From Geopsychrobacter electrodiphilus DSM 16401 (GTDB lineage Bacteria > Desulfobacterota > Desulfuromonadia > Desulfuromonadales > Geopsychrobacteraceae), in the NCBI RefSeq assembly GCF_000384395.1, contig NZ_ARWE01000001.1, forward strand, positions 2,320,894 to 2,384,893: a stretch of DNA of 64,000 nt. The letters run 5' to 3'. The translations under genes and the position numbers were made by a program. Below, piece by piece: positions 6,634 through 17,490 of this stretch (the first letter of the stretch is position 1; each line of letters starts with the position of its first letter). A model generated the notes under the pieces. The model had not been told where the DNA came from. It was given only the letters and a program-made list of their open reading frames with translations, and searched no databases.

Positions 6634-7716
6634 TTACTGTTTCTGCGTGGTCTCCTGTTTCTGCGTGGTCTCCTGTTTCTGCGTGGTCTCCTGTTTCTGC
6701 GCGGACAGGGACTTAACCCCCATCACATTGATCAGATCGTTGATGTTAGTGGTCTTCAGGTTCATCCCACCTTCAGACATCGGCAGCAGGAGAATCTTTT
6801 TACCCTGCAACGCCTCGGCGACCTGCAGCTTGACCATGGTTTCACCACCTGAACCGGCAAGCGCCTTGTTCATCTGCTCGATACCGCGCGCTTCAGCTTT
6901 ACCCTCGGCAGTAATGGCATCGGCCAGATACTGCTGCTGTGCATAATAAGCATCCGCCTCGATCTTCGCTTTTTTGAAAACACCATCGGCGTCAGCGATC
7001 ACCTTATTGACCTCCCCTTTGGCCGCTTCGAGTTCTTTGCGGTATTCCTCAAGGGCCGCATGCTGGGCCGATTTATTTTTTTCGGCCATCTGATCGGCGA
7101 TTTTCTTATCCTCAATTGCCCGCTGATAATCGGCCACGAAACGATAATCCTTGGTCAGGACCTTCTCGACGATGATGCCGTAGGGGCCGAGGATCTTCTG
7201 CATAGTCTCCTTGACGAGGTCAGCTTTCTCGCGCCGCCGATCACTGATATAAAATTCTTCGGTCGTGAGTTCACCAAAGATATCACGGGGTTTGCTGCGC
7301 GCAACGGTACGCACCACCTTGTCGCGTAACTCTTTATCGCTGCTGGCGACATTTTGCAGAATATAGGGGGCCATCTTCGGATCGATGCGATAAGCGATGA
7401 TCAAATCAAGGCTGATATCGTTACCATCAATGGTCTTGAACAACACGTCATCTTTGGTATTGCGGTCACCACGCCGCACCTCTGCGGTCATCTCCAAGTT
7501 CTGTAGCTTGGTATCGAAAGTATTCCAGTCATTAATAAACGGCAGAAAGATTGTCGTCGAGCCTGGGGGATAAATCTTATCTTCAACCCCTTTCTCACCA
7601 AACAGGGAAAACTTGACCGTGCGAACACCGACCTCTGTCTTACCGGTGCTATAGAGCACACAACCGGAAAGGAAAAAGCTCGGCAACAGAATTAGAATCA
7701 GGATAAGCTTTTTCAT
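6634..7716 (-). CDS. SPFH/band-7 domain lipoprotein (HflC-like member of a pair)
   Basis: 360 aa. N-terminal lipoprotein signal with lipobox LSGC (Cys about residue 19), unusual because most SPFH proteins carry a plain membrane anchor. SPFH domain about residues 30-210 (VGVRTVKFSLFGEKGV onward, with LTTEEFYISDRR and IIVEKVLTKDY), then a charged Ala/Glu/Lys-rich coiled coil (about 205-275) typical of ring-forming stomatin/prohibitin/HflKC proteins. The C-terminus ends in repeats of QETTQK encoded by an 18-bp tandem repeat. ATG preceded by GGGAGG; overlaps the other SPFH gene by ATGA, so the two probably form a hetero-oligomer. No protease gene is directly adjacent, but a rhomboid gene lies divergently upstream. 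Confidence 0.88.
   Translation of the reverse strand: MKKLILILILLPSFFLSGCVLYSTGKTEVGVRTVKFSLFGEKGVEDKIYPPGSTTIFLPFINDWNTFDTKLQNLEMTAEVRRGDRNTKDDVLFKTIDGNDISLDLIIAYRIDPKMAPYILQNVASSDKELRDKVVRTVARSKPRDIFGELTTEEFYISDRRREKADLVKETMQKILGPYGIIVEKVLTKDYRFVADYQRAIEDKKIADQMAEKNKSAQHAALEEYRKELEAAKGEVNKVIADADGVFKKAKIEADAYYAQQQYLADAITAEGKAEARGIEQMNKALAGSGGETMVKLQVAEALQGKKILLLPMSEGGMNLKTTNINDLINVMGVKSLSAQKQETTQKQETTQKQETTQKQ
6637..6701. repeat. 18-bp coding tandem repeat, three full units and one partial
   Basis: Unit CTGTTTCTGCGTGGTCTC repeated at 6637-6654, 6655-6672 and 6673-6690, with an 11-base partial copy from 6691. It is in frame and encodes the QETTQK repeats at the C-terminus of the SPFH lipoprotein. 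The exact copies suggest recent slippage or expansion, so copy number may vary between strains. Confidence 0.92.
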
Positions 7717-8819
7717 TTTTTTCCTCCCTGGCGTACATCAAACAATTTGAGAGTCTTATCAAGGTTAAGTGGATTAACCCCGTTCGTGCCGTCACTCGGC
7801 AGCACGATCACGTCAAGTCCCTTGTAGACGTCAGCCATTTTGAGTCCGACCATACGATCGGCGCCCTCCCCTTGCAGTGCGGCATTTTTCAGCTTAACCT
7901 TTTGTGCTTCAGAGAGCTTAACCAACAGGTCGGCTTCGGCATTTTTAGTCCGCACATAGCGATCTTTTTCGGCGACCCGTTTGGTAACATAGGCCTGACC
8001 GTTCTCCATCTCAACCGCAACGATGACCTTCCCTTCCTGCACGATTTTTTTCAGCTTGGCCTCTTCGATGGCCGCCCGTCCTTCGGCCTGATTTTTGAAA
8101 ACCAACTGATCCTGAAGCTTTTTCGCTTCGATATTCTTCTGGATCTCATCGCTGTAACGGAAATAGCGCACCAAAACCTGCACGACCTCAATCCCTTTCG
8201 GTTTGAGCTCAACGTTAAGCAGATCTTTCGCTCGCTCGGTCTTGGCGACGCGCATCGGACTGTTATAAAACTGTTCGGTCGTCAGCTCACCCAACGTCGC
8301 CTTGAGTGCCGGTTCGGTCTTGGGAATGATGCCGTTGTCCTCAAACAGTCGACCCGGTCCGATGGTGGTAAACACCTTGTAGGGATCGATCAGCTTATAG
8401 ATGATCGAGACATCGACATCGACAAAGAAACCATCCGATGTCTGGATATGGGCCGCACGCTCGATGCGTGCGAAGCGCGATGCGCTGCGGGGAGAATTAG
8501 TCAATTCCAGCACTTGAAGATCTCGCGGCAGGGCATCCATCTCCTGGATCCCGGGAATCACAAACTGTAATCCAGGCCCGTAAACCTCATGCTGAATACC
8601 CTTGTTGGTACCGAAACGATCAATTTTGATACCGTATTCATTAGGGTGTACATAGACAAAAGCCAACTTAAAAACCAGAAACACAAAAACTAACAGCAAG
8701 GGCAAATACTTTGCCTTGCCGAAAATCTTATTGAAGCGCCCAAAGGACGCTTGTATCTGAGCCTTTCTCCGCAACAACTCTTCCATGTCGACGACGTTCG
8801 AACCTTTATTGTAGTCCAT
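7713..8819 (-). CDS. SPFH/band-7 domain membrane protein (HflK-like member of a pair)
   Basis: 368 aa. A short cytoplasmic N-terminus with MEELLRRKAQIQ, one membrane span (about 39-57, YLPLLLVFVFLVFKLAFVY), then the SPFH domain (YGIKIDRFGTNKGIQHEVYGPGLQFVIPG through LKPKGIEVVQVLVRYFRYSDEIQ) and a coiled-coil tail rich in Glu/Lys/Ala to about residue 320. Orientation and architecture match HflK/prohibitin-like proteins that form large membrane rings. GGAGATAAG precedes the ATG. First gene of the two-gene minus-strand SPFH operon, whose second gene overlaps by four bases. A function in membrane compartmentation or protease control is family knowledge, not shown here. Confidence 0.88.
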   Translation of the reverse strand: MDYNKGSNVVDMEELLRRKAQIQASFGRFNKIFGKAKYLPLLLVFVFLVFKLAFVYVHPNEYGIKIDRFGTNKGIQHEVYGPGLQFVIPGIQEMDALPRDLQVLELTNSPRSASRFARIERAAHIQTSDGFFVDVDVSIIYKLIDPYKVFTTIGPGRLFEDNGIIPKTEPALKATLGELTTEQFYNSPMRVAKTERAKDLLNVELKPKGIEVVQVLVRYFRYSDEIQKNIEAKKLQDQLVFKNQAEGRAAIEEAKLKKIVQEGKVIVAVEMENGQAYVTKRVAEKDRYVRTKNAEADLLVKLSEAQKVKLKNAALQGEGADRMVGLKMADVYKGLDVIVLPSDGTNGVNPLNLDKTLKLFDVRQGGKK

Positions 8820-9052: not shown

Positions 9053-9781
9053 TTGAACAGTCACAGCTTCCAGACATTTTTTCGCCGTAATTCATTGCGT
9101 GGCCATTCATTGGTACAGATTCTGATTTATATCAATCTCGGACTTTTCACCTTGATGGTGCTACACGGCACTATTTTAGGTTTGCAGATGCAGGCGATCC
9201 TTAACCCACCGACTCAACTTTTAGTCCATTGGGGTGCGCAGTTCTGGCCACTGGTAGTGCAGAAAAACCAGTGGTGGCGTTGTCTCACCTATGCCTACAC
9301 CCACGGCGGCCTGATGCATATCGGCTTCAATATGCTGGTCCTCTACCAGATCGGCCCCATGATTGAAGAGGAGATCGGCTGGCGACGATTTTTCACACTC
9401 TACACCCTCTGCGGACTGCTGGCGACTTTCGCCGGATATTTCTGGCATCCGATGGTGGTAGTAGTCGGTGCTTCCGGCGCGATTTTCGGGCTGATCGGCT
9501 TTTCGGTCAGTTATTACCACCGCATGGGCGGTGCGCGCGCGATCCAACATCGCAACTTCATGTTTCAGTGGGCGGTGATGGCATTTGTGTTCGGCCTGGT
9601 GGTCGGTGCCGATAACGCCGCACACCTTGGCGGTCTATTGACTGGCGCGGCCTTCGGCTGGATGGTCCCCACCAGTGTTCGGGGACAGCGCGGGACAGAG
9701 CCTCTGTTTAAAGTTCTGGCCTGGACCTGTGTGGTTTTGACCGCCATCAGCATTCTTGCGATCCCCTTCAGCTGGGCGTAA
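9053..9781 (+). CDS. Rhomboid-family intramembrane serine protease
   Basis: 242 aa with about six membrane spans. Catalytic Ser in GASGAIFGLIGF (span 4) and catalytic His in NAAHLGGLLTGAAFGW (span 6); HIGFNMLVLYQIGPMIEEEIG supplies the conserved His/Asn of span 2. Rhomboids cut membrane proteins within the bilayer. The start is a TTG at 9053, selected because AAGGAG stands five bases upstream and no in-frame ATG fits. Divergent from the SPFH operon across a 233-bp gap, and followed four bases later by the YbaK-type gene. Adjacency to SPFH genes suggests a shared theme of membrane-protein quality control. Confidence 0.92.
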   Translation: MNSHSFQTFFRRNSLRGHSLVQILIYINLGLFTLMVLHGTILGLQMQAILNPPTQLLVHWGAQFWPLVVQKNQWWRCLTYAYTHGGLMHIGFNMLVLYQIGPMIEEEIGWRRFFTLYTLCGLLATFAGYFWHPMVVVVGASGAIFGLIGFSVSYYHRMGGARAIQHRNFMFQWAVMAFVFGLVVGADNAAHLGGLLTGAAFGWMVPTSVRGQRGTEPLFKVLAWTCVVLTAISILAIPFSWA

Positions 9782-10301: not shown

Positions 10302-11861
10302 TTAGAGCCCTGCAAGCAAGGAGCTTCGATCAACCGGATCGATCTGATCGCGGCTTAAAAATTCGACTGCATACCCCTCATAAAGCTTTTCATCAATAAA
10401 CAACTGGAACAGTTCGGGATCAACCCGACCGGCATCGACCATTTCACGCATAATTTTTAACGCCTGACTCAGACTATTGCCTTTTTTATAGGGGCGACTG
10501 CTTGCGCTCACAGATTCAAAGAGGTCCGCAAATCCGAGTATCCGCGCCTGCATCAGCATTTGATCGCTCTGCAGTCCGCTCGGGAAACCCTGCCCATTGT
10601 GGGATTCATGGTGGGCCGCGGCAATCTCGGGAACCTGCAGCAACCCTTCAGGAAAAGAGAGCATATCAAGCATATTAATGGTCGAAACCACATGTTGGTT
10701 GATCAACTCCCGCTCGGCGTCTGTGATTGTCCCACGTAGCACCATCAGATTTTCAGCTTCATCGTCAGTCAGGACCGGCATCTCTTCTCCCTGACTATCA
10801 ATCCAGCGATACCCTGCAGCGATCTCACGGACCCGGAGAGTTTCTTTGTCTGTCAGGGAGTTCCAGCCACGATTACAATCCGCCAGAAAACGTAGATCAT
10901 CGAGCATCGGTCTCGCATCCATGGGCCTTTGCGGTAATTCCACAGGCCCCGCAGCCTCACCTTTGCGCAGTTGCGCAATTTCAAGATCACGTCGCAGAAT
11001 TTCGAACCGGGTGCGTACCAGATCGAAGCGATCGATGGTCCGCTCGAGTTTCGTTGCCTTGTCGGTCACCTGAATCGGCATCACCAGCTTACCGATGTCA
11101 TGCAGCCAGGCAGCAACCTCAAGTTCGTAGAGTTCGGCATCTGTGAACCTTAGGTCCCGAAACGCAGGCGACATGCTCCGGTTGATGGCGCGCGCCAGAA
11201 TCATGGTGAGAACCGGAACCCGTCGACAATGATCATTGGCATAGGGTGACTTTTCATCAATGGCGCTGCCGATCAACTGGACCAGCGACTCAAACAGATC
11301 GCTCTGTTCACGTCGGAAGTTTATCAGTTTCAGGACAGAAGTTGCCTGTTGCATCAGGATAGAAGCGGCCGTCTGTTCGACATGGGAGAAACCGGCCCCC
11401 ACTTCTTTATGGCTCATGCGAATCAGTTCAATGACCTGTCGGACAGGCTTACCAGGTTCCGTCAGTGGAAGCAGCAGGCAGGAGGAGACCTGACGCCCAT
11501 GGGCAATTTCAACTGACCGCAGGTGGGAGAAATCGAACTGACCGGACCGAACCGGATCATGACAGCAGAGGCTCTTGTGCTGCAGCACCACCTCTTCGAG
11601 CACCGTCTGCTGTCCGGCACCCTGAGAACGAGCGCTCCAGTCAAATTCGAATGGAATTGGCGTGGCCTGAAAGGCCTCAGGTGGAAAGGAATGAACAGCG
11701 CGCCAATTTTGCGTGGTCACCGGTTGCAGCATGACCGCCAGATCGCCACCACAGACCTGACATAACTCGGCGAGCAAAATCTGCTCGGCGGCTTGAGTCT
11801 CCACCGCCCCTGCAAGCGCAACCGAGGCCTGCTGTAATTTTAATAAAAGATCTGCATTCAC
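10302..11861 (-). CDS. GAF-like/HD-GYP protein, probable c-di-GMP phosphodiesterase
   Basis: 519 aa. Residues 1-180 resemble a GAF sensory domain. The HD-GYP domain starts near residue 200: EKSPYANDHCRRVP, metal-binding HD in AAWLHDIGKL, then AAHHESHNGQGFPSGL, matching the GYP signature with Phe for Tyr. Between HDIGK and the next conserved His (INQHVVSTI) are about 130 residues, far more than in a compact HD-GYP domain, so there is an insertion. HD-GYP enzymes hydrolyse cyclic di-GMP. The start is GTG at 11861; the nearby Shine-Dalgarno sits in a hairpin with a GCGA tetraloop. Convergent with the YbaK gene. Activity is likely but untested given the Phe and the insertion. Confidence 0.85.
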   Translation of the reverse strand: MNADLLLKLQQASVALAGAVETQAAEQILLAELCQVCGGDLAVMLQPVTTQNWRAVHSFPPEAFQATPIPFEFDWSARSQGAGQQTVLEEVVLQHKSLCCHDPVRSGQFDFSHLRSVEIAHGRQVSSCLLLPLTEPGKPVRQVIELIRMSHKEVGAGFSHVEQTAASILMQQATSVLKLINFRREQSDLFESLVQLIGSAIDEKSPYANDHCRRVPVLTMILARAINRSMSPAFRDLRFTDAELYELEVAAWLHDIGKLVMPIQVTDKATKLERTIDRFDLVRTRFEILRRDLEIAQLRKGEAAGPVELPQRPMDARPMLDDLRFLADCNRGWNSLTDKETLRVREIAAGYRWIDSQGEEMPVLTDDEAENLMVLRGTITDAERELINQHVVSTINMLDMLSFPEGLLQVPEIAAAHHESHNGQGFPSGLQSDQMLMQARILGFADLFESVSASSRPYKKGNSLSQALKIMREMVDAGRVDPELFQLFIDEKLYEGYAVEFLSRDQIDPVDRSSLLAGL

Positions 11862-11878: not shown

Positions 11879-12134
11879 AATAAACCCGCTTATGACCCAT
11901 CACAGATAAGTCTAGCGGCCTGCTCGGCAAATGCAAGAAACCGCTCTCAAGACAAATTTCAGGACTGAAACGACGTGAGCCAGAATCTGAAAATTTCACC
12001 TAAAATGGATATTACCTGCTTCTTTAACCCTGGTCTTTTTAAATTTTATATTTGGGATCTCAACAGAATCGCCGAAAGGATGCTAGCATTGAACATAATT
12101 AAGGCCTTTGCCCCTCTCCGCCTGGAGGTCTAAA

Positions 12135-13190
12135 ATGAACCAGGAAGTCACGAGCAGCCTGCTTCACCGGGCCCACCTGAAAACCCTGTTTAAAAGATCC
12201 TTTCTTGTTTTTCTGATCCTCTTTATTGCCTATACCTGCATCGCTCTGTTCTACGCCAGCCGCACCATCTACAAGGTACGACGCAACTACGCAATCATAG
12301 TTGAAACCCTCTCAGGTGAACGGATTGCCGTCACCGAGGTCGGCTGGCATCTGCGGCTGCCGATCTTTACCCGCATTGAACTGGAAGTCCCGCTGATGAA
12401 TCAGGAGCTGTACCTTGGCGCCTCGGCCAGCCCCAAACAAATAATGTCAAAGGGGAATGTGGCCCTCTGGACCAGCGCGATGATGACCTACCGGATTCAT
12501 GACCTTGAACGCTGGGGTATTGAAAATCGTTCACCTGAAATCCTGCTTCAGAACGACTTTGACGGTCTGGTCAAGGATGTAATGCAGGGGGAAACAATCA
12601 ACGCGCTGATCTCGGACCGCGAGCGGATCAAGGAACAGATCTATCGCACCCTGAAAAATAGTCCGCTCAACGATGGGGGGCTGACCCTTGAAGAAAAGTA
12701 TGGAATCACCATAGTCTCCTTCGTCCTGCGCGACACCAGCTACGGAGAAAAGCTGGCAGCCGCGAGTGAAGAAAAGAAACGCCGTGAGTTGATCGCCGAA
12801 GCCGAAAACTATGCCGCCGACCTTGAAGCCAGCCGCACGCGTAAACTCTACACCGCGTACCAGGAATCGATCCGCGATATGCGTAAAGCGCTGGAGCTCG
12901 ATCCGCGCAGCGACCCCTATCTATTCGACTTCCTCAACCAACAGAAGTGGGCGGCGGCTTATGAGAAGAACCAGCAGGGACAGAACACCTTCGTGCTGAA
13001 CAACAGTGGTGCAACCACCGGCCTCACCCTGACACCCCCGAACCAGAAGAATGAGAAACTCTCGGAGTTATCCGGTGCGCAGATATCTGCGCCACCTCAA
13101 CAACGGCCTAGGACCAGCCATGCCTCAGACACGCAAAACACGCTCACAGGTCTACGTCAGCCTGTCGGAACAACGAATCAGGCAGATTGA
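12135..13190 (+). CDS. SPFH/band-7-like membrane protein paired with an AAA-Lon protease
   Basis: 351 aa. One N-terminal membrane span (about 24-42, SFLVFLILFIAYTCIALFY), then an SPFH-like domain (VRRNYAIIVETLSGERIAVTEVGWHLRLPIFTRIELEVPLMNQELYLG; VALWTSAMMTYRIHDLERWGI; ISDRERIKEQIYRTL; YGITIVSFVLRDTSY) and a helical Glu/Ala/Arg-rich stretch (about 205-255). The C-terminal ~70 residues are low in hydrophobics and rich in Gln/Thr/Pro. It is diverged from the SPFH pair at 6.6-8.8 kb. The ATG at 12135 has GGAGG six bases before it. Its 3' end overlaps the next gene by 71 bases, so the two are coupled. By analogy with HflKC and FtsH it may scaffold the downstream protease; this is inference. Confidence 0.82.
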   Translation: MNQEVTSSLLHRAHLKTLFKRSFLVFLILFIAYTCIALFYASRTIYKVRRNYAIIVETLSGERIAVTEVGWHLRLPIFTRIELEVPLMNQELYLGASASPKQIMSKGNVALWTSAMMTYRIHDLERWGIENRSPEILLQNDFDGLVKDVMQGETINALISDRERIKEQIYRTLKNSPLNDGGLTLEEKYGITIVSFVLRDTSYGEKLAAASEEKKRRELIAEAENYAADLEASRTRKLYTAYQESIRDMRKALELDPRSDPYLFDFLNQQKWAAAYEKNQQGQNTFVLNNSGATTGLTLTPPNQKNEKLSELSGAQISAPPQQRPRTSHASDTQNTLTGLRQPVGTTNQAD

Positions 13191-16100
13191 AGAACTGGTC
13201 GAAAACTGGGGAATGGAGACCAGTCGTTTTGTTCTGCGCCGTCTGCGCCAGCACGATCCGAGCCGCTCTCTGAGCCAACGCCTCGGCCTGAGACTGCGCC
13301 GTATCTATAAACCACCCAGGCGCGACTTCAGTTTTCTGCGCGACCCGCGCAAATTGAACGACTGGCACCAGCGCTTCGAGGTCGCCGGATCGCAGGACGC
13401 CAGTGCCGCCTGGAACCGGATTTTGACCAAGGAACTTGACCCCGAAGACTTTCATTATCTCACCTATCTCCTCGAACGCATAACCATTGACACCTTCGTC
13501 CCGCCCGAAATTCACGAGATCTTCGACAAACTCTATCAGAGCTATATCCTCAAAAAATACAGCGAGGACCCCAAGGTGCCACGCGCACCTCTGGTGTTGG
13601 TGATTGGTAACTCGGGGAGCGGCAAAAGCGCGACCGTCAAGCAGGCGATTGAGGAAGTTTTCTTTAGTTCCGAGGTTAAACCGGTTATCGATCTGCAGGT
13701 CAAGCGTGAAGAAGTCATGGCCCACCAACCGATCTGGCGCAGCCTCGAAGAGGTTGACCCCGAGCTGGCGATGCGTATTGAAAGGCGTAGAAAACGGAGT
13801 CGCCTCAGGTTTTTTTCACGCCTGCCGCTGATTCGCTACCTGTTCCGCAATCTGATCAGTGCCGCCCTTTCGACTCTCGACGAAGAGGGACTCAAGGTTG
13901 ACTACGCCGAAATCACCCCCAATGATTATCAGACAGCCTGGGCAGGTGAGCCGGGCAACTACCTGCGCAAAGCGATGGGTCACCCACGCAAACTTGCGGT
14001 CAGGCATCTGGAAGAGGCCCACAGCGCCTTCGGACGTCCCGATCAACTAAGCAGTGTCAAGGGACAGCAGAGCTCCCTGGTCGATGCCGCCAATATCATC
14101 ATCGATGAAATCATTCATGGTCAACGCGATTGCATTATGATCGCCACCACAGACCAGCCAGAGCAGCTCGATCCGGCAATCTACCGGCGCTTCGTAGAGC
14201 GCGGTCTGGTGATCGACCTGAACGAAACCTGGCAAAACCCGGACAACCTGAGGCAGGTGGTCTGCCTCGAACTGCGCCGAAAACTGCACCCGATCCATTC
14301 CGACGATCCACGTCCTCAGCCACTAAGCGAAGAGGAGATTGATCAGACGATCACCAAACTCTATCCTATCTTCCGCCAACGCAGCCTGCGCATCACCCCC
14401 GCCTATGTCCGCCGCCTGATCGCCGAGGTGATCAGCATACATGGCCGCTTCAGCGCCGCCTGCCTGGATGACCAGCTGCTGGTGCGCGATGCCCTGAAGT
14501 CAGTGGCGCGCAATACCTTTGGCACACTCTACCAGCGCCTGGTGGGGCTGATGGATCGCAGCATCGCCTGGCAAGAATATATCGGCGGGATCAAAAATGA
14601 ATTCTCAGAGATGGCAAATAACGCCCTCTTCTACAATGTCAGCGAAGAGAAAGGCGTAGTATTGACCGGCCCACCGGGCTCAGGCAAAACCTTCATGGTT
14701 CGCGCCTGGCTGGGAGACAACCACGACGTACAGGATTTATCGGTCAACCTCGCCGATTTAAACGACCCGACCCGACCCCTCGAAGGAATGGTTGCCAATC
14801 TTGAAGCGGTCTATGACATCGCCAAAATGATCTCACCGGCGATGGTCTTCTTTGACGAAGGGGATGCGATCGCTCCACGGCGCTCGCCTCAGGGTGGGAG
14901 CCCCTATGACAAGGTGACCAATAAATTTCTATCGATCATCGACGGTGAATCGTCCCTCAACCGTGTTTTCACAGTTTTAACCACCAACCGGCTCGACATT
15001 CTCGATCCGGCGCTGATCAGAAGCAAGCGTCTCAAGGTGTTGAATGTCACCGGCCAACTGCGTGACGAGGACGGGCAGCGGATTATCCTGAAAGAGATGG
15101 CCGATCTGCCACTGGAAGAGGGTTTATCGGCTGTAGAGATCACGCGTCAGGCCCGCACCCTGTGTGAGACCCCGGCCGATTTTGCTGCATTTGCCGAGAA
15201 GGTTCGAACCCTGCGCAAAACCGAGATTGAGGTCACCGACAAACTCCTGCGCGTCACAGAACAGCCACACGAGGAGAGGGTGCGTTTTGTCCGCTTCAAC
15301 TACAAAATCCTGCTCGGTTTACTTGAAGGGATATCCCCCCAATCGTCACTCCTGATGAAGGCACGGCAGGGCGAGGACGCCCTCCTGTCGCGACTGGATG
15401 AGGTCATCGAACGGATCCGTCGACTCAAGGCCGAGAAGAATTTCCCGATCAGCAGCTGGCATCTGCAAAACGCCCGTCAGCAGTTGGCCGGAAGTCCCAT
15501 GCGCAAAGGAAAACAGCAACTTGATGAATTTTTAGAGACCGAACTATCCCAGGAACCGCAGATTGGTTTTGTGGTCGGGGTGGGCGCCAACGACACCTGC
15601 GGGGTGCTTCTGCCGATCGCCTCATCGCTGATTTATCGCATTCATCCGCAAAAGATCCTGGTAACCGGCGCAGTTTCCTCAACAGCGGCGGGTGCGGCAG
15701 AACTGGATATGGCCGTGCAGATGACAAACCAAAGCGCCTGTGAAGCCCTGACTCTGGTTGAAAACTATCTCGGCTCGCTGCAGCCGGAGCGTAATCTCAC
15801 CAGAATCCTCGGAGAATTCCTCGACGGATACACCCTGCATCATCAACTGCTGTCAGCGTCATATAATGTCGGCGGCCCCTCAGCCGGTTTCGCACTGGCA
15901 ATCAACACACTATCGGTTTTGCTGCAACTCCCGGTTTTAAACGATTTCGGCATCACGGGCGCCCCTTGGATCAAAGGCGCACGTAAAGGAGAAGTCGGAG
16001 CCTCTGTACTGATCGGTGGACATCACAAAAAAACCGAAAAAGTCCTGCAATATCTGCAACGCATGTACATGCCACAGCAGAATTATAATGATATGGAACC

Positions 16101-16428
16101 GGACGTCCTTGATGCCTACCGTGCCATCGGTAAGGATGTCATCGGTGTGCGCAGTTTTTCGGCGCTGGTCCCCGAAGTCTTCGACTTTGGTTCGAACCAT
16201 CTCCAAGAATTACAGCTCTTTTTTGCGGAGCGCCGCGATCTTGCGCGCTCCCCCCTCGACCTGGAGTCCCTATCGACAGACCGCGCAAAACAGGCTGAAA
16301 AAAGCTCCCATTTGAGACAGTTATGCGAGAAAGTCATCATTGAGCGCATCCTGGAGATCGAAAAATCCTTATCCAGTCAACACCGCAATCACCTCAATCT
16401 GAACAACCTCTTCTCCCCTCAGGCATAA
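13120..16428 (+). CDS. Large double-AAA protein with C-terminal Lon-type protease domain
   Basis: 1102 aa, no membrane span. First AAA module: Walker A GNSGSGKS at about 163-170, a variant Walker B LAVRHLEEAH (292-301, LEE in place of DE) and sensor-like IATTDQPEQLDPAIYRRF. A basic patch (219-250, rich in Arg with FFSRLPLIRYLFRNL) might touch the membrane. Second AAA module: Walker A GPPGSGKT at 517-524, Walker B MVFFDEGDA at 575-583, sensor 1 LTTNRLDILDPALIRSKRLKVL. The C-terminal domain is Lon-like: Ser921 in GGPSAG and Lys971, four residues after the GG of IGGHHKK, the same offset as the catalytic Lys in E. coli Lon; Ser-Lys spacing is 50 against 43 there. I do not recognise a named family with this order. 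The start overlaps the SPFH gene and has AGGA upstream. Confidence 0.85.
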   Translation: MPQTRKTRSQVYVSLSEQRIRQIEELVENWGMETSRFVLRRLRQHDPSRSLSQRLGLRLRRIYKPPRRDFSFLRDPRKLNDWHQRFEVAGSQDASAAWNRILTKELDPEDFHYLTYLLERITIDTFVPPEIHEIFDKLYQSYILKKYSEDPKVPRAPLVLVIGNSGSGKSATVKQAIEEVFFSSEVKPVIDLQVKREEVMAHQPIWRSLEEVDPELAMRIERRRKRSRLRFFSRLPLIRYLFRNLISAALSTLDEEGLKVDYAEITPNDYQTAWAGEPGNYLRKAMGHPRKLAVRHLEEAHSAFGRPDQLSSVKGQQSSLVDAANIIIDEIIHGQRDCIMIATTDQPEQLDPAIYRRFVERGLVIDLNETWQNPDNLRQVVCLELRRKLHPIHSDDPRPQPLSEEEIDQTITKLYPIFRQRSLRITPAYVRRLIAEVISIHGRFSAACLDDQLLVRDALKSVARNTFGTLYQRLVGLMDRSIAWQEYIGGIKNEFSEMANNALFYNVSEEKGVVLTGPPGSGKTFMVRAWLGDNHDVQDLSVNLADLNDPTRPLEGMVANLEAVYDIAKMISPAMVFFDEGDAIAPRRSPQGGSPYDKVTNKFLSIIDGESSLNRVFTVLTTNRLDILDPALIRSKRLKVLNVTGQLRDEDGQRIILKEMADLPLEEGLSAVEITRQARTLCETPADFAAFAEKVRTLRKTEIEVTDKLLRVTEQPHEERVRFVRFNYKILLGLLEGISPQSSLLMKARQGEDALLSRLDEVIERIRRLKAEKNFPISSWHLQNARQQLAGSPMRKGKQQLDEFLETELSQEPQIGFVVGVGANDTCGVLLPIASSLIYRIHPQKILVTGAVSSTAAGAAELDMAVQMTNQSACEALTLVENYLGSLQPERNLTRILGEFLDGYTLHHQLLSASYNVGGPSAGFALAINTLSVLLQLPVLNDFGITGAPWIKGARKGEVGASVLIGGHHKKTEKVLQYLQRMYMPQQNYNDMEPDVLDAYRAIGKDVIGVRSFSALVPEVFDFGSNHLQELQLFFAERRDLARSPLDLESLSTDRAKQAEKSSHLRQLCEKVIIERILEIEKSLSSQHRNHLNLNNLFSPQA

Positions 16429-16629: not shown

Positions 16630-17490
16630 ATGGCGGCTCGCAAAAAAATGGGTGAAATCCTCGTTGACGCGGGGTTAATCAAACCGGAAACACTGCGGCA
16701 GGCGCTGCAGAATCAACGCGGCACCGGCAAACGCCTAGGTCAGGTACTTGAAGAGATGGACGTTATCCTCGAAGAGGACATTGCCGCGGCTCTCGGCCGT
16801 CAATTTGGGGTGCGCCTGGTCAAGGGGATATCGCGCTTCAATTACCCCCCGGCGATCCTGAAACTGGTCTCTCCCGAAGAAGCCCTGGCACGCTTCATCT
16901 TCCCGCTGAAGGTCGAAAAGAAAACCCTTTACCTGGCAATGGCCAACCCGCTTGATCTGGACACCGCCCAGGAGGTCGGTTTTCGTAACGGCCTGCAGGT
17001 TGTCCCCTGCGTAACGACTCCCGAAGAAATCAAATCTGCAATCAACCGCCACCTGCTTGCGGTCGAAAAAAAGCATCAGGTAAAGGACCGCTGGTGGACG
17101 GTGCTCATCGTTGATGACCAGGAGATGGTCCAGTTGATGATTGAGGTGACGCTGAAAAAGCAGGGTTATGAAATATTAAAAGCGAACAACGGCGCCGAAG
17201 GGTTACGCCTTGCACTGCAGGAAAAGCCGCATTTGATCCTGACCGACACCCTGATGCCACGCATGGATGGTGTCGAAATGTTCCGTAACATCAAAGCCAA
17301 CCGTCAGATTGCCCATATCCCGGTTATCGCCCTGTCAGCCAAGGCGACACCCGAAGAAGAAGCCCGCTTACTTGACTACGGTTATTTCGATTTCATGGCC
17401 AAACCGATCAATCCGGTCCGCCTGGTGGCCAGGATTAAACGCGCACTCACACAATGCTACGGTGACACTCCTCCCCAAAGTACAAAATGA
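16630..17490 (+). CDS. MshEN-type domain fused to a response-regulator receiver
   Basis: 286 aa. Residues 1-140 match the N-terminal domain of type II secretion/MshE ATPases: two tandem motifs, KMGEILVDAGLIKPETLRQA and KRLGQVLEEMDVILEEDIAA, of the kind that binds cyclic di-GMP in MshE, followed by FPLKVEKKTLYLAMANPLD. Residues 155-280 are a CheY-like receiver (VLIVDDQEMV, phospho-acceptor Asp in LILTDTLMPRMDG, Ser/Ala in ALSAKAT, Lys in FMAKPINP). No ATPase part, so it is a stand-alone sensor or adaptor. A TTGACA at 16524-16529 upstream may be a -35, but the -10 match is weak. The Shine-Dalgarno is also poor (a G-run about 18 bases before the ATG), so the start is less sure. Confidence 0.85.
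   Translation: MAARKKMGEILVDAGLIKPETLRQALQNQRGTGKRLGQVLEEMDVILEEDIAAALGRQFGVRLVKGISRFNYPPAILKLVSPEEALARFIFPLKVEKKTLYLAMANPLDLDTAQEVGFRNGLQVVPCVTTPEEIKSAINRHLLAVEKKHQVKDRWWTVLIVDDQEMVQLMIEVTLKKQGYEILKANNGAEGLRLALQEKPHLILTDTLMPRMDGVEMFRNIKANRQIAHIPVIALSAKATPEEEARLLDYGYFDFMAKPINPVRLVARIKRALTQCYGDTPPQSTK

Follow-up and report, generated by a model that had tools for sequence, protein, structure and literature searches.

A gene pair of Geopsychrobacter electrodiphilus DSM 16401 combines an SPFH (Band 7) membrane protein with a large protein in which two AAA modules are joined to a C-terminal Lon-type (S16) peptidase domain (the AAA-AAA-Lon protein). The pair lies in a stretch of 64,000 nucleotides of contig NZ_ARWE01000001.1 (positions 2,320,894 to 2,384,893 of the forward strand), which is called the window here and from whose first letter all coordinates are counted. 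The domain content, the invariant catalytic motifs, the pairing of the genes and the classical type of the second AAA module (AAA2) have direct support. We read the system as a two-gene, SPFH-scaffolded, adenosine triphosphate (ATP)-driven and membrane-associated serine protease, an analogue of HflKC-FtsH rather than one of its members, and give this reading a probability of about 0.6. The pair comprises the following elements.

12135-13190, + strand: gene of the SPFH (Band 7) membrane protein, 351 amino acids (open reading frame; Band_7 match; alignment of 28 rows)
13120-16428, + strand: gene of the AAA-AAA-Lon protein, 1102 amino acids (open reading frame, profile matches, family alignment)
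13120-13190, + strand: overlap of the two frames, 71 bases (open reading frames)
12124-12128, + strand: GGAGG, ribosome-binding-like, 5' of the SPFH start (read directly)
13110-13113, + strand: AGGA, ribosome-binding-like, 5' of the AAA-AAA-Lon start and within the SPFH gene (read directly)

The pairing of the two genes is consistent in the class Desulfuromonadia. Among 244 genomes of the class, the AAA-AAA-Lon protein (E value up to 1e-60) is present in 40, the SPFH protein (E value up to 1e-20) in 39, and both in 38. In all 38 the genes are adjacent on the same contig and the same strand with the SPFH gene first, and the gap between the ends of the two matches ranges from -14 to 280 bases. 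An earlier, preliminary description of the window had proposed following the adjacency across the class, and it is borne out here. The exceptions are three genomes. In G050, with the SPFH gene only, the contig stops 77 bases past the SPFH match; in G541, with the Lon gene only, the match opens 4 bases from the contig start. In G027, also with the Lon gene only and 86% complete, other sequence stands where the N-terminal 410 residues are expected, owing to a true truncation or an assembly fault. The sequence upstream of this shortened AAA-Lon gene (locus L025, 1-2734) resembles a Sir2-type gene by eye. When the sample is restricted to the 187 good genomes (at least 90% complete, at most 5% contaminated), the same 30 carry both genes and none carries one alone. 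All these counts include related genomes, which are not independent, and hence no probability is attached to them. Draws from the whole phylum show the Lon protein in 11 of 297 genomes and the SPFH protein in 10 of 294, all ten being among the eleven; the eleventh, G351, has the SPFH neighbour too (locus L073) and probably fell outside the SPFH draw. By tblastn, the SPFH gene adjoins the AAA-AAA-Lon gene in complete loci, and it is picked as the called frame in 24 of 33 loci, antisense frames having won elsewhere. The SPFH and AAA-AAA-Lon genes are a two-gene unit, and their adjacency and co-occurrence suggest that the two proteins work together.

Both frames, their coordinates and the 71-base overlap had been given correctly in the preliminary description. 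An alternative, longer frame of the AAA-AAA-Lon gene opens at 13051; the start at 13120 is preferred because, in sequence comparison, the homology of the relatives starts at the ATG at this position. The two frames overlap in 25 of 31 loci (34 loci, of which 3 without a complete SPFH gene are left out); of the six loci without overlap, two have an AAA-AAA-Lon start that was assumed and does not fall on a start codon. This arrangement is compatible with a translational coupling of the two genes. Two other candidates at the locus were rejected. A TTGAA...CCC-like pattern, taken as a possible heat-shock promoter, stands 5' of the window copy alone (1 of 31 loci) and is attributed to chance. A fusion of the SPFH protein to an upstream part, hinted at by open frames of 1160 and 477 amino acids, was dismissed after inspection of the two loci, which contain either a normal SPFH frame or GC-rich shadow frames.

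The peptidase domain and its predicted catalytic residues are located as follows.

15472-16254, + strand: Lon-type (S16) peptidase domain, modelled region of residues 785-1045 (predicted local distance difference test score, pLDDT, 82; predicted template modelling score, pTM, 0.82)
15880-15882, + strand: Ser921, predicted nucleophile, in GGPSAG (24/24 rows; aligned with the Ser of Lon)
16030-16032, + strand: Lys971, predicted general base, in IGGHHKK (24/24 rows; aligned with the Lys of three LonA rows)

The family alignment behind these counts contains 24 distinct rows, the window protein and 23 relatives chosen among the loci found, which are 50-85% identical to it. The Lon-like domain with an intact-looking dyad, proposed from the start, is matched by Lon profiles throughout the family: Pfam Lon_C hits 24/24 rows at E values up to 0.01 (best 2.6e-7), and on the window protein alone the match is marginal (E 1.9e-4; 21.5 bits with a cut-off of 21.1, 0.4 bits over). 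Searched against the PDB at E up to 0.1, a profile built on residues 785-1045 matches nine sequences. Lon accounts for eight of them, the best at 3.7e-7; the other is a fatty-acid synthase domain (E 0.0059). A comparison of profiles between the domain and three LonA proteins encoded by this genome yields an E value of 3e-6 and a probability of 88%, with the GPSAG and IGG motifs aligned. The AlphaFold2 model of the domain, compared with PDB structures by Foldseek, finds Lon in all of the best 50 of 548 matches (E up to 10). In an alignment of 30 family and 3 LonA rows, the columns of Ser921, Lys971, His907 and Thr946 are identical in all 33. Fold, profile and the putative Ser-Lys dyad, as judged from model and alignment, place the domain in the Lon peptidase family S16 at the domain level. 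Chance or mis-annotation of the domain is rejected, as the family-wide and structural tests are concordant.

The geometry of the dyad departs from that of known Lons. Lys971 lies four residues past the second glycine of IGGHHKK, as first described, and the statement that this offset equals that of Lon holds for the distance from GG to Lys (IGGLKEK or VGGVKEK in three LonA rows; the E. coli sequence ended before its Lys). It does not hold for the distance from Ser to Lys, which is 49 residues in 24/24 and 30/30 family rows (overlapping sets) and 42 in 3/3 LonA rows. The surroundings of the serine read [NSA]VGGPSAG in 24/24 and [NSAT]VGGPSAG in 30/30 family rows, with GPSA alone shared with type A. 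The signatures given in one survey are PKDGPSA for type A and [ED]GDSA[ST] for type B (PMC2605481). A review reports exactly 42 residues between Ser and Lys for LonA and LonB and states that no further active-centre variant had been identified (PMC9569914).

The order of regions in the large protein is an N-terminal region of about 125 residues, a diverged first AAA module (AAA1), the well-conserved AAA2, a helical linker and the Lon domain. The two modules show the following motifs.

13606-13629, + strand: AAA1 Walker A, residues 163-170, GNSGSGKS (GxSGSGK[ST] in 24/24 rows)
13675-13893, + strand: AAA1 insertion located between Walker A and Walker B, ~70 residues long, basic and helical, about residues 186-258 (Walker spacing; helices in a low-confidence model)
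14011-14016, + strand: AAA1 Walker B-like Glu298-Glu299 ([LMVI]EEAH in 24/24 rows)
14656-15039, + strand: AAA2, classical AAA domain, residues 513-640 (PF00004, E 1e-27; CDC48, PAN and FtsH models best)
14668-14691, + strand: AAA2 Walker A, residues 517-524, GPPGSGKT (24/24 rows)
14854-14859, + strand: AAA2 Walker B Asp579-Glu580 (FDEG in 24/24 rows)
15019-15030, + strand: AAA2 Arg634 and Arg637 (IRSKRL in 24/24 rows)

The Walker A motifs begin at residues 163 and 517, where the preliminary description had placed the two AAA modules. The motif matches go beyond chance because both Walker A motifs, Glu298-Glu299, Asp579-Glu580, Ser921 and Lys971 are kept in 24/24 rows. By analogy with p97, Arg634 and Arg637 presumably occupy the arginine-finger positions. 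The insertion in AAA1 extends the distance from the Walker A lysine to the Walker B glutamate to 130 residues (Lys169-Glu299), compared to 57 in AAA2 (Lys523-Glu580). It occupies the same place, between Walker A and B, as the membrane-anchoring insertion described for archaeal LonB in a review (PMC9569914), but in the first AAA module. PDB and Pfam searches gave no convincing match for the N-terminal region of about 125 residues, with the Cdc48 N-domain absent among its Pfam matches. A ribbon-helix-helix likeness of this region, noticed by eye, was likewise dropped for want of support in both searches.

A profile of the family AAA2 gives 67-80 bits for five FtsH-like proteins, all five with HExxH, and 129 bits, in two domains, for a plasmid protein of Nostoc termed Cdc48-like; eight Lon proteins stay at or below 12.2 bits. 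The FtsH-like proteins and the Nostoc protein were preselected by their match to the window protein, which favours them, and the Lons were picked mainly via Lon profiles. The NCBIfam ranking of AAA2 is free of this preselection bias and lists CDC48 at 7.7e-22, PAN at 4.3e-18 and FtsH at 4.4e-18. Two LonB models of the same database cover residues 805-1022 only, which is the peptidase part. A genome search shows the same division, with residues 510-690 matching FtsH-sized frames and residues 895-1058 matching Lon-sized frames separately. The alignment further shows in AAA2 the TTNR...LDPALIRSKR region of the classical AAA profile. By these sequence comparisons AAA2 is of the classical Cdc48/FtsH type and not of the Lon type, and a Lon-type origin of the module is rejected on the profile scores. 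The original label of a double-AAA Lon is right about the composition; with a classical AAA2 it understates how unusual the protein is.

The Cdc48-like character of the motor leads to another interpretation, in which the large protein is mainly a Cdc48/NSF-like remodeller that dismantles SPFH rings or extracts membrane proteins, with a Lon domain that is structural or rarely cuts. In the fold comparison of the full-length model, the best 50 matches are all Cdc48/p97 chains, and the best sequence matches of the motor are to Cdc48/p97 as well; the serine surroundings outside the LonA and LonB signatures and the gap of 49 residues point in the same direction. A dead domain, however, would be expected to lose its dyad somewhere, whereas all 24 rows keep Ser921 and Lys971, and LonA has His907 and Thr946 in common with the family. 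Conservation of the Lon region (0.84) is nearly as high as that of AAA2 (0.88) and above that of the linker (0.64). We regard a mainly remodelling role as quite improbable.

Several results weigh against the reading as a double-ring Lon-type protease. The dyad gap of the family exceeds that of known Lons by 7 residues, and the alignment used for the Lon-domain model contained the 3 LonA rows beside the 30 family rows, so that the model leans somewhat on Lon. The best stretch of the general lon model (residues 611-993, E 1.7e-6) extends into AAA2. AAA1 is divergent, its best match to Cdc48 having an E value of 0.001, level with P-loop matches to UvrA, and the comparison of the AAA1 and AAA2 profiles reaches a probability of 70.6% over 90 columns. 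Where AAA2 carries DE and TTN, AAA1 carries EE and T[TS]D. Because of this divergence AAA1 may not hydrolyse ATP, and it plausibly forms a nucleotide-binding ring with weak or no hydrolysis. In AAA2, the presumed pore loop, P-[LIVF]-[ED]-G, is without the usual aromatic residue in most rows. The full-length model is poor (pLDDT 61.7) and superposes badly on its fold matches (template modelling score by query at most 0.19, root mean square deviation above 25 Å), and the ring architecture consequently rests on homology. In the window copy of the large protein the highest hydropathy (1.76) is found just past Ser921 inside the Lon domain, and the highest values across 24 rows are 1.27-2.09; hydropathy speaks neither clearly for nor clearly against membrane insertion of this protein.

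The partner protein shows the features of the SPFH superfamily. Pfam Band_7 matches residues 47-231 with an E value of 1.1e-13, and two further elements stand out.

12201-12257, + strand: predicted transmembrane segment, SPFH residues 23-41 (Kyte-Doolittle 2.56)
12921-13004, + strand: conserved QQKW...AYEKN..GQNT region past the SPFH coil, residues 263-290 (mean conservation 0.85, 28 rows)

An N-terminal hydrophobic segment is found in 28/28 rows with Kyte-Doolittle values of 1.73-3.05, and further segments reach at most 1.01. The 351-residue protein thus has both the Band_7 domain and the predicted N-terminal membrane segment by which membership in the superfamily is judged. With the NCBIfam models for HflK and HflC, it scores 17 bits on HflK at a cut-off of 159.4 and leaves HflC unmatched at E values up to 1. 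Lysine and arginine residues before the membrane segment are at least as many as those in the following 20 residues in 28/28 rows and strictly more in 25. This charge pattern weakly hints at a periplasmic SPFH domain as in HflK/C, whose SPFH domain is reported as periplasmic (PMC2636767). If the domain is periplasmic, a cytoplasmic partner could be reached by the short basic N-terminal tail only; Arg12 of this tail is invariant in 28 rows, and the tail as a whole is moderately conserved (0.62). The basic helical AAA1 insertion of the large protein could provide an alternative contact with the membrane.

The following mechanism is proposed for the SPFH-scaffolded protease, for which we infer a hexamer with its rings, the activity, the contact with the SPFH protein and membrane-protein substrates. 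The large protein would form a stacked double-ring motor of the classical, Cdc48-like AAA kind. AAA1 would mainly bind nucleotide and hold or gate the substrate, and AAA2 would hydrolyse ATP and pull the substrate through. In the Lon-type chamber at the end of the chain, Ser921 and Lys971 would then cut the unfolded polypeptide. The co-translated SPFH protein, with its single membrane segment, would form rings as stomatins and prohibitins do, would dock or confine the motor at the inner membrane and would hand over membrane or membrane-near proteins to it. The SPFH protein thereby probably holds the large protein at the membrane. The overall working would be like that of HflKC-FtsH, with a different peptidase and motor.

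The AAA-AAA-Lon family has a patchy distribution. It is carried by 25 of 60 near genomes at an identity of at least 62%, with partial copies in G002, G027 and G056. A scan of named genomes (84,980 species) with six exact 8-residue patterns of the window protein, by which distant relatives would be missed, gives 34 loci in Geopsychrobacter, Desulfuromonas, Malonomonas, Geobacter, other Desulfuromonadales, Desulforhopalus, Desulfocapsaceae, Desulfofustis and generic Delta- and Proteobacteria. These loci belong to at least two orders of Desulfobacterota. The pair is present in the cultured strains Malonomonas rubra DSM 5091 and Desulfofustis glycolicus DSM 9705. The Lon-domain profile finds matches at 1e-7 in 16 of 395 phylum genomes, and 12 of these hold the AAA-AAA-Lon family (E 8.5e-137 or better); the other 4 have frames of 798-823 amino acids near 1e-8 with GPSAG, which are taken as ordinary Lon, and no match lies in between. 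Whole-genome sampling was confined to Desulfobacterota, with other phyla thinly searched, and the family is so far found only in Desulfobacterota, in a patchy pattern produced through loss or transfer.

This distribution bears on two other explanations. In one, the protease is regulated and acts on a single specific substrate or a small number of them, as a switch in signalling or envelope stress for which the SPFH protein is the adaptor, and does not serve general quality control. Its occurrence in only 12 of 395 phylum genomes agrees with such a role. The genome of G. electrodiphilus itself encodes three further LonA-like proteins with GPSAG (G000 C1:1649530, 2856041 and 846120; loci L076-L078) and an FtsH-sized frame matching AAA2, on account of which the system looks dispensable. 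A third gene for a substrate or regulator, however, is common to no more than 12 of 33 loci, and we consider this specialised role unlikely. Two more proteins of the same genome match S16 (L079 and L081). In the other explanation, the system serves anti-phage defence or another conflict, for which the patchy presence speaks together with the AAA and Lon-like domains of defence systems such as BREX BrxL (PMC10164562). Against it, PADLOC assigns the SPFH protein to 0 families, and for the large protein the best stretches of its 13 PADLOC families (best TRIP13 at 2.9e-12, IetA at 1.5e-10 and mad8 at 1.3e-7) all lie within the AAA modules. Among plasmid and phage records none spans 80% of the large protein, and viral contigs contain no relative. 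A defence function is very improbable.

The genomic surroundings were compared in 33 loci of unequal length, the window included. The pair itself is present in nearly all of them, and the next most shared neighbours are a cluster containing response regulators (12 loci), rhomboid proteins (10) and Sir2-type proteins (10), followed by an aminoacyl-tRNA editing protein (8), an M24 peptidase (8) and Band_7 proteins (6); a further cluster in 10 loci consists of antisense shadow frames. The shared clusters are found mainly in closer relatives, and beyond these the 33 loci show no conserved third partner. The neighbours in the window are the following.

6634-7716 and 7713-8819, - strand: tandem Band_7 genes, within 6 kb upstream of the pair
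9053-9781: rhomboid protease gene, within 6 kb upstream of the pair
10302-11861: HD_5 gene, upstream of the pair
16630-17490: gene with MshEN and response-regulator receiver domains, downstream of the pair and in the 12-locus cluster

We take the product of the MshEN/receiver gene to be possibly a cyclic di-GMP binder. The tandem Band_7 genes match no NCBIfam model at E values up to 0.001, and naming them hflC and hflK was dropped on this ground. This upstream SPFH pair is thus neither HflK nor HflC by model, and the first of its proteins starts like a lipoprotein by eye.

If the combination of a classical double motor with an S16 chamber holds true, motor and peptidase would be exchangeable between AAA+ lineages, and the active centre would fit neither type A nor type B. 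A dedicated, consistently paired SPFH partner would offer a simple two-protein system in which to address the contribution of SPFH rings to proteolysis, a question that HflKC and the prohibitins raise as well.

The closest known systems share some aspects with the pair. HflKC-FtsH and prohibitin-m-AAA likewise combine one or more SPFH proteins with a classical-AAA protease in a membrane setting. In FtsH a single AAA module is joined to a zinc peptidase, and the membrane segments lie in the same chain. The large protein in contrast has two AAA modules and an S16 peptidase, HExxH is found in 0/24 rows of its family, and its SPFH partner is not HflK and is encoded with it in an operon-like pair. 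LonA, LonB, LonC and LonBA share the C-terminal S16 domain with a Ser-Lys dyad. The family differs from LonA and LonB by a non-Lon motor beside the peptidase, a second AAA module, a gap of 49 instead of 42 and another serine signature. LonB carries its membrane anchors within its own chain (PMC9569914), whereas here a separate SPFH protein is the candidate anchor. Cdc48/p97 resembles the large protein in its tandem AAA modules and provides the best PDB sequence matches and the best fold matches; the large protein differs by its own peptidase, a diverged AAA1 with an insertion of ~70 residues and the missing Cdc48 N-domain match in Pfam. In the SPFH-NfeD pairs (Pyrococcus horikoshii PH1510/PH1511, QmcA-YbbJ and YuaFG), too, the SPFH gene shares an operon with a partner gene whose product may contain a protease domain. 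This partner belongs to the NfeD proteins, which may or may not include a ClpP-type domain (PMC2636767, PMC13086221), and is not an AAA protein as in the window.

The preliminary description knew of no described system of this composition, and the literature search is in line with it: no named family with the same architecture was found, and searches of the open-licence full text of PubMed Central turned up no description of the combination, most preprints and subscription papers lying outside its coverage. A table of Lon architectures in 117 proteins lists no form with two AAA modules, and lists combinations with Sigma54_activat, Mg_chelatase and PDZ (PMC2605481). In a review of Lon proteases, each has a single AAA+ module of its own ahead of the peptidase, and the active centre is of type A or B only (PMC9569914). 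Band-7/AAA operons and a two-AAA protein with an inactive N-terminal copy are mentioned in PMC11237479, with no Lon domain evident in those passages. By the tests made, the system is a member of none of the SPFH-protease systems, to which it is likened by inference. There is somewhat better than an even chance that it represents a separate class of AAA+ proteases, with a classical type-II (Cdc48-like) double motor, an S16 peptidase acquired independently of the Lon lineage, a dedicated SPFH scaffold and a third variant of the S16 active centre with a 49-residue gap, which would give Desulfobacterota a further membrane-associated degradation system beside FtsH and Lon.

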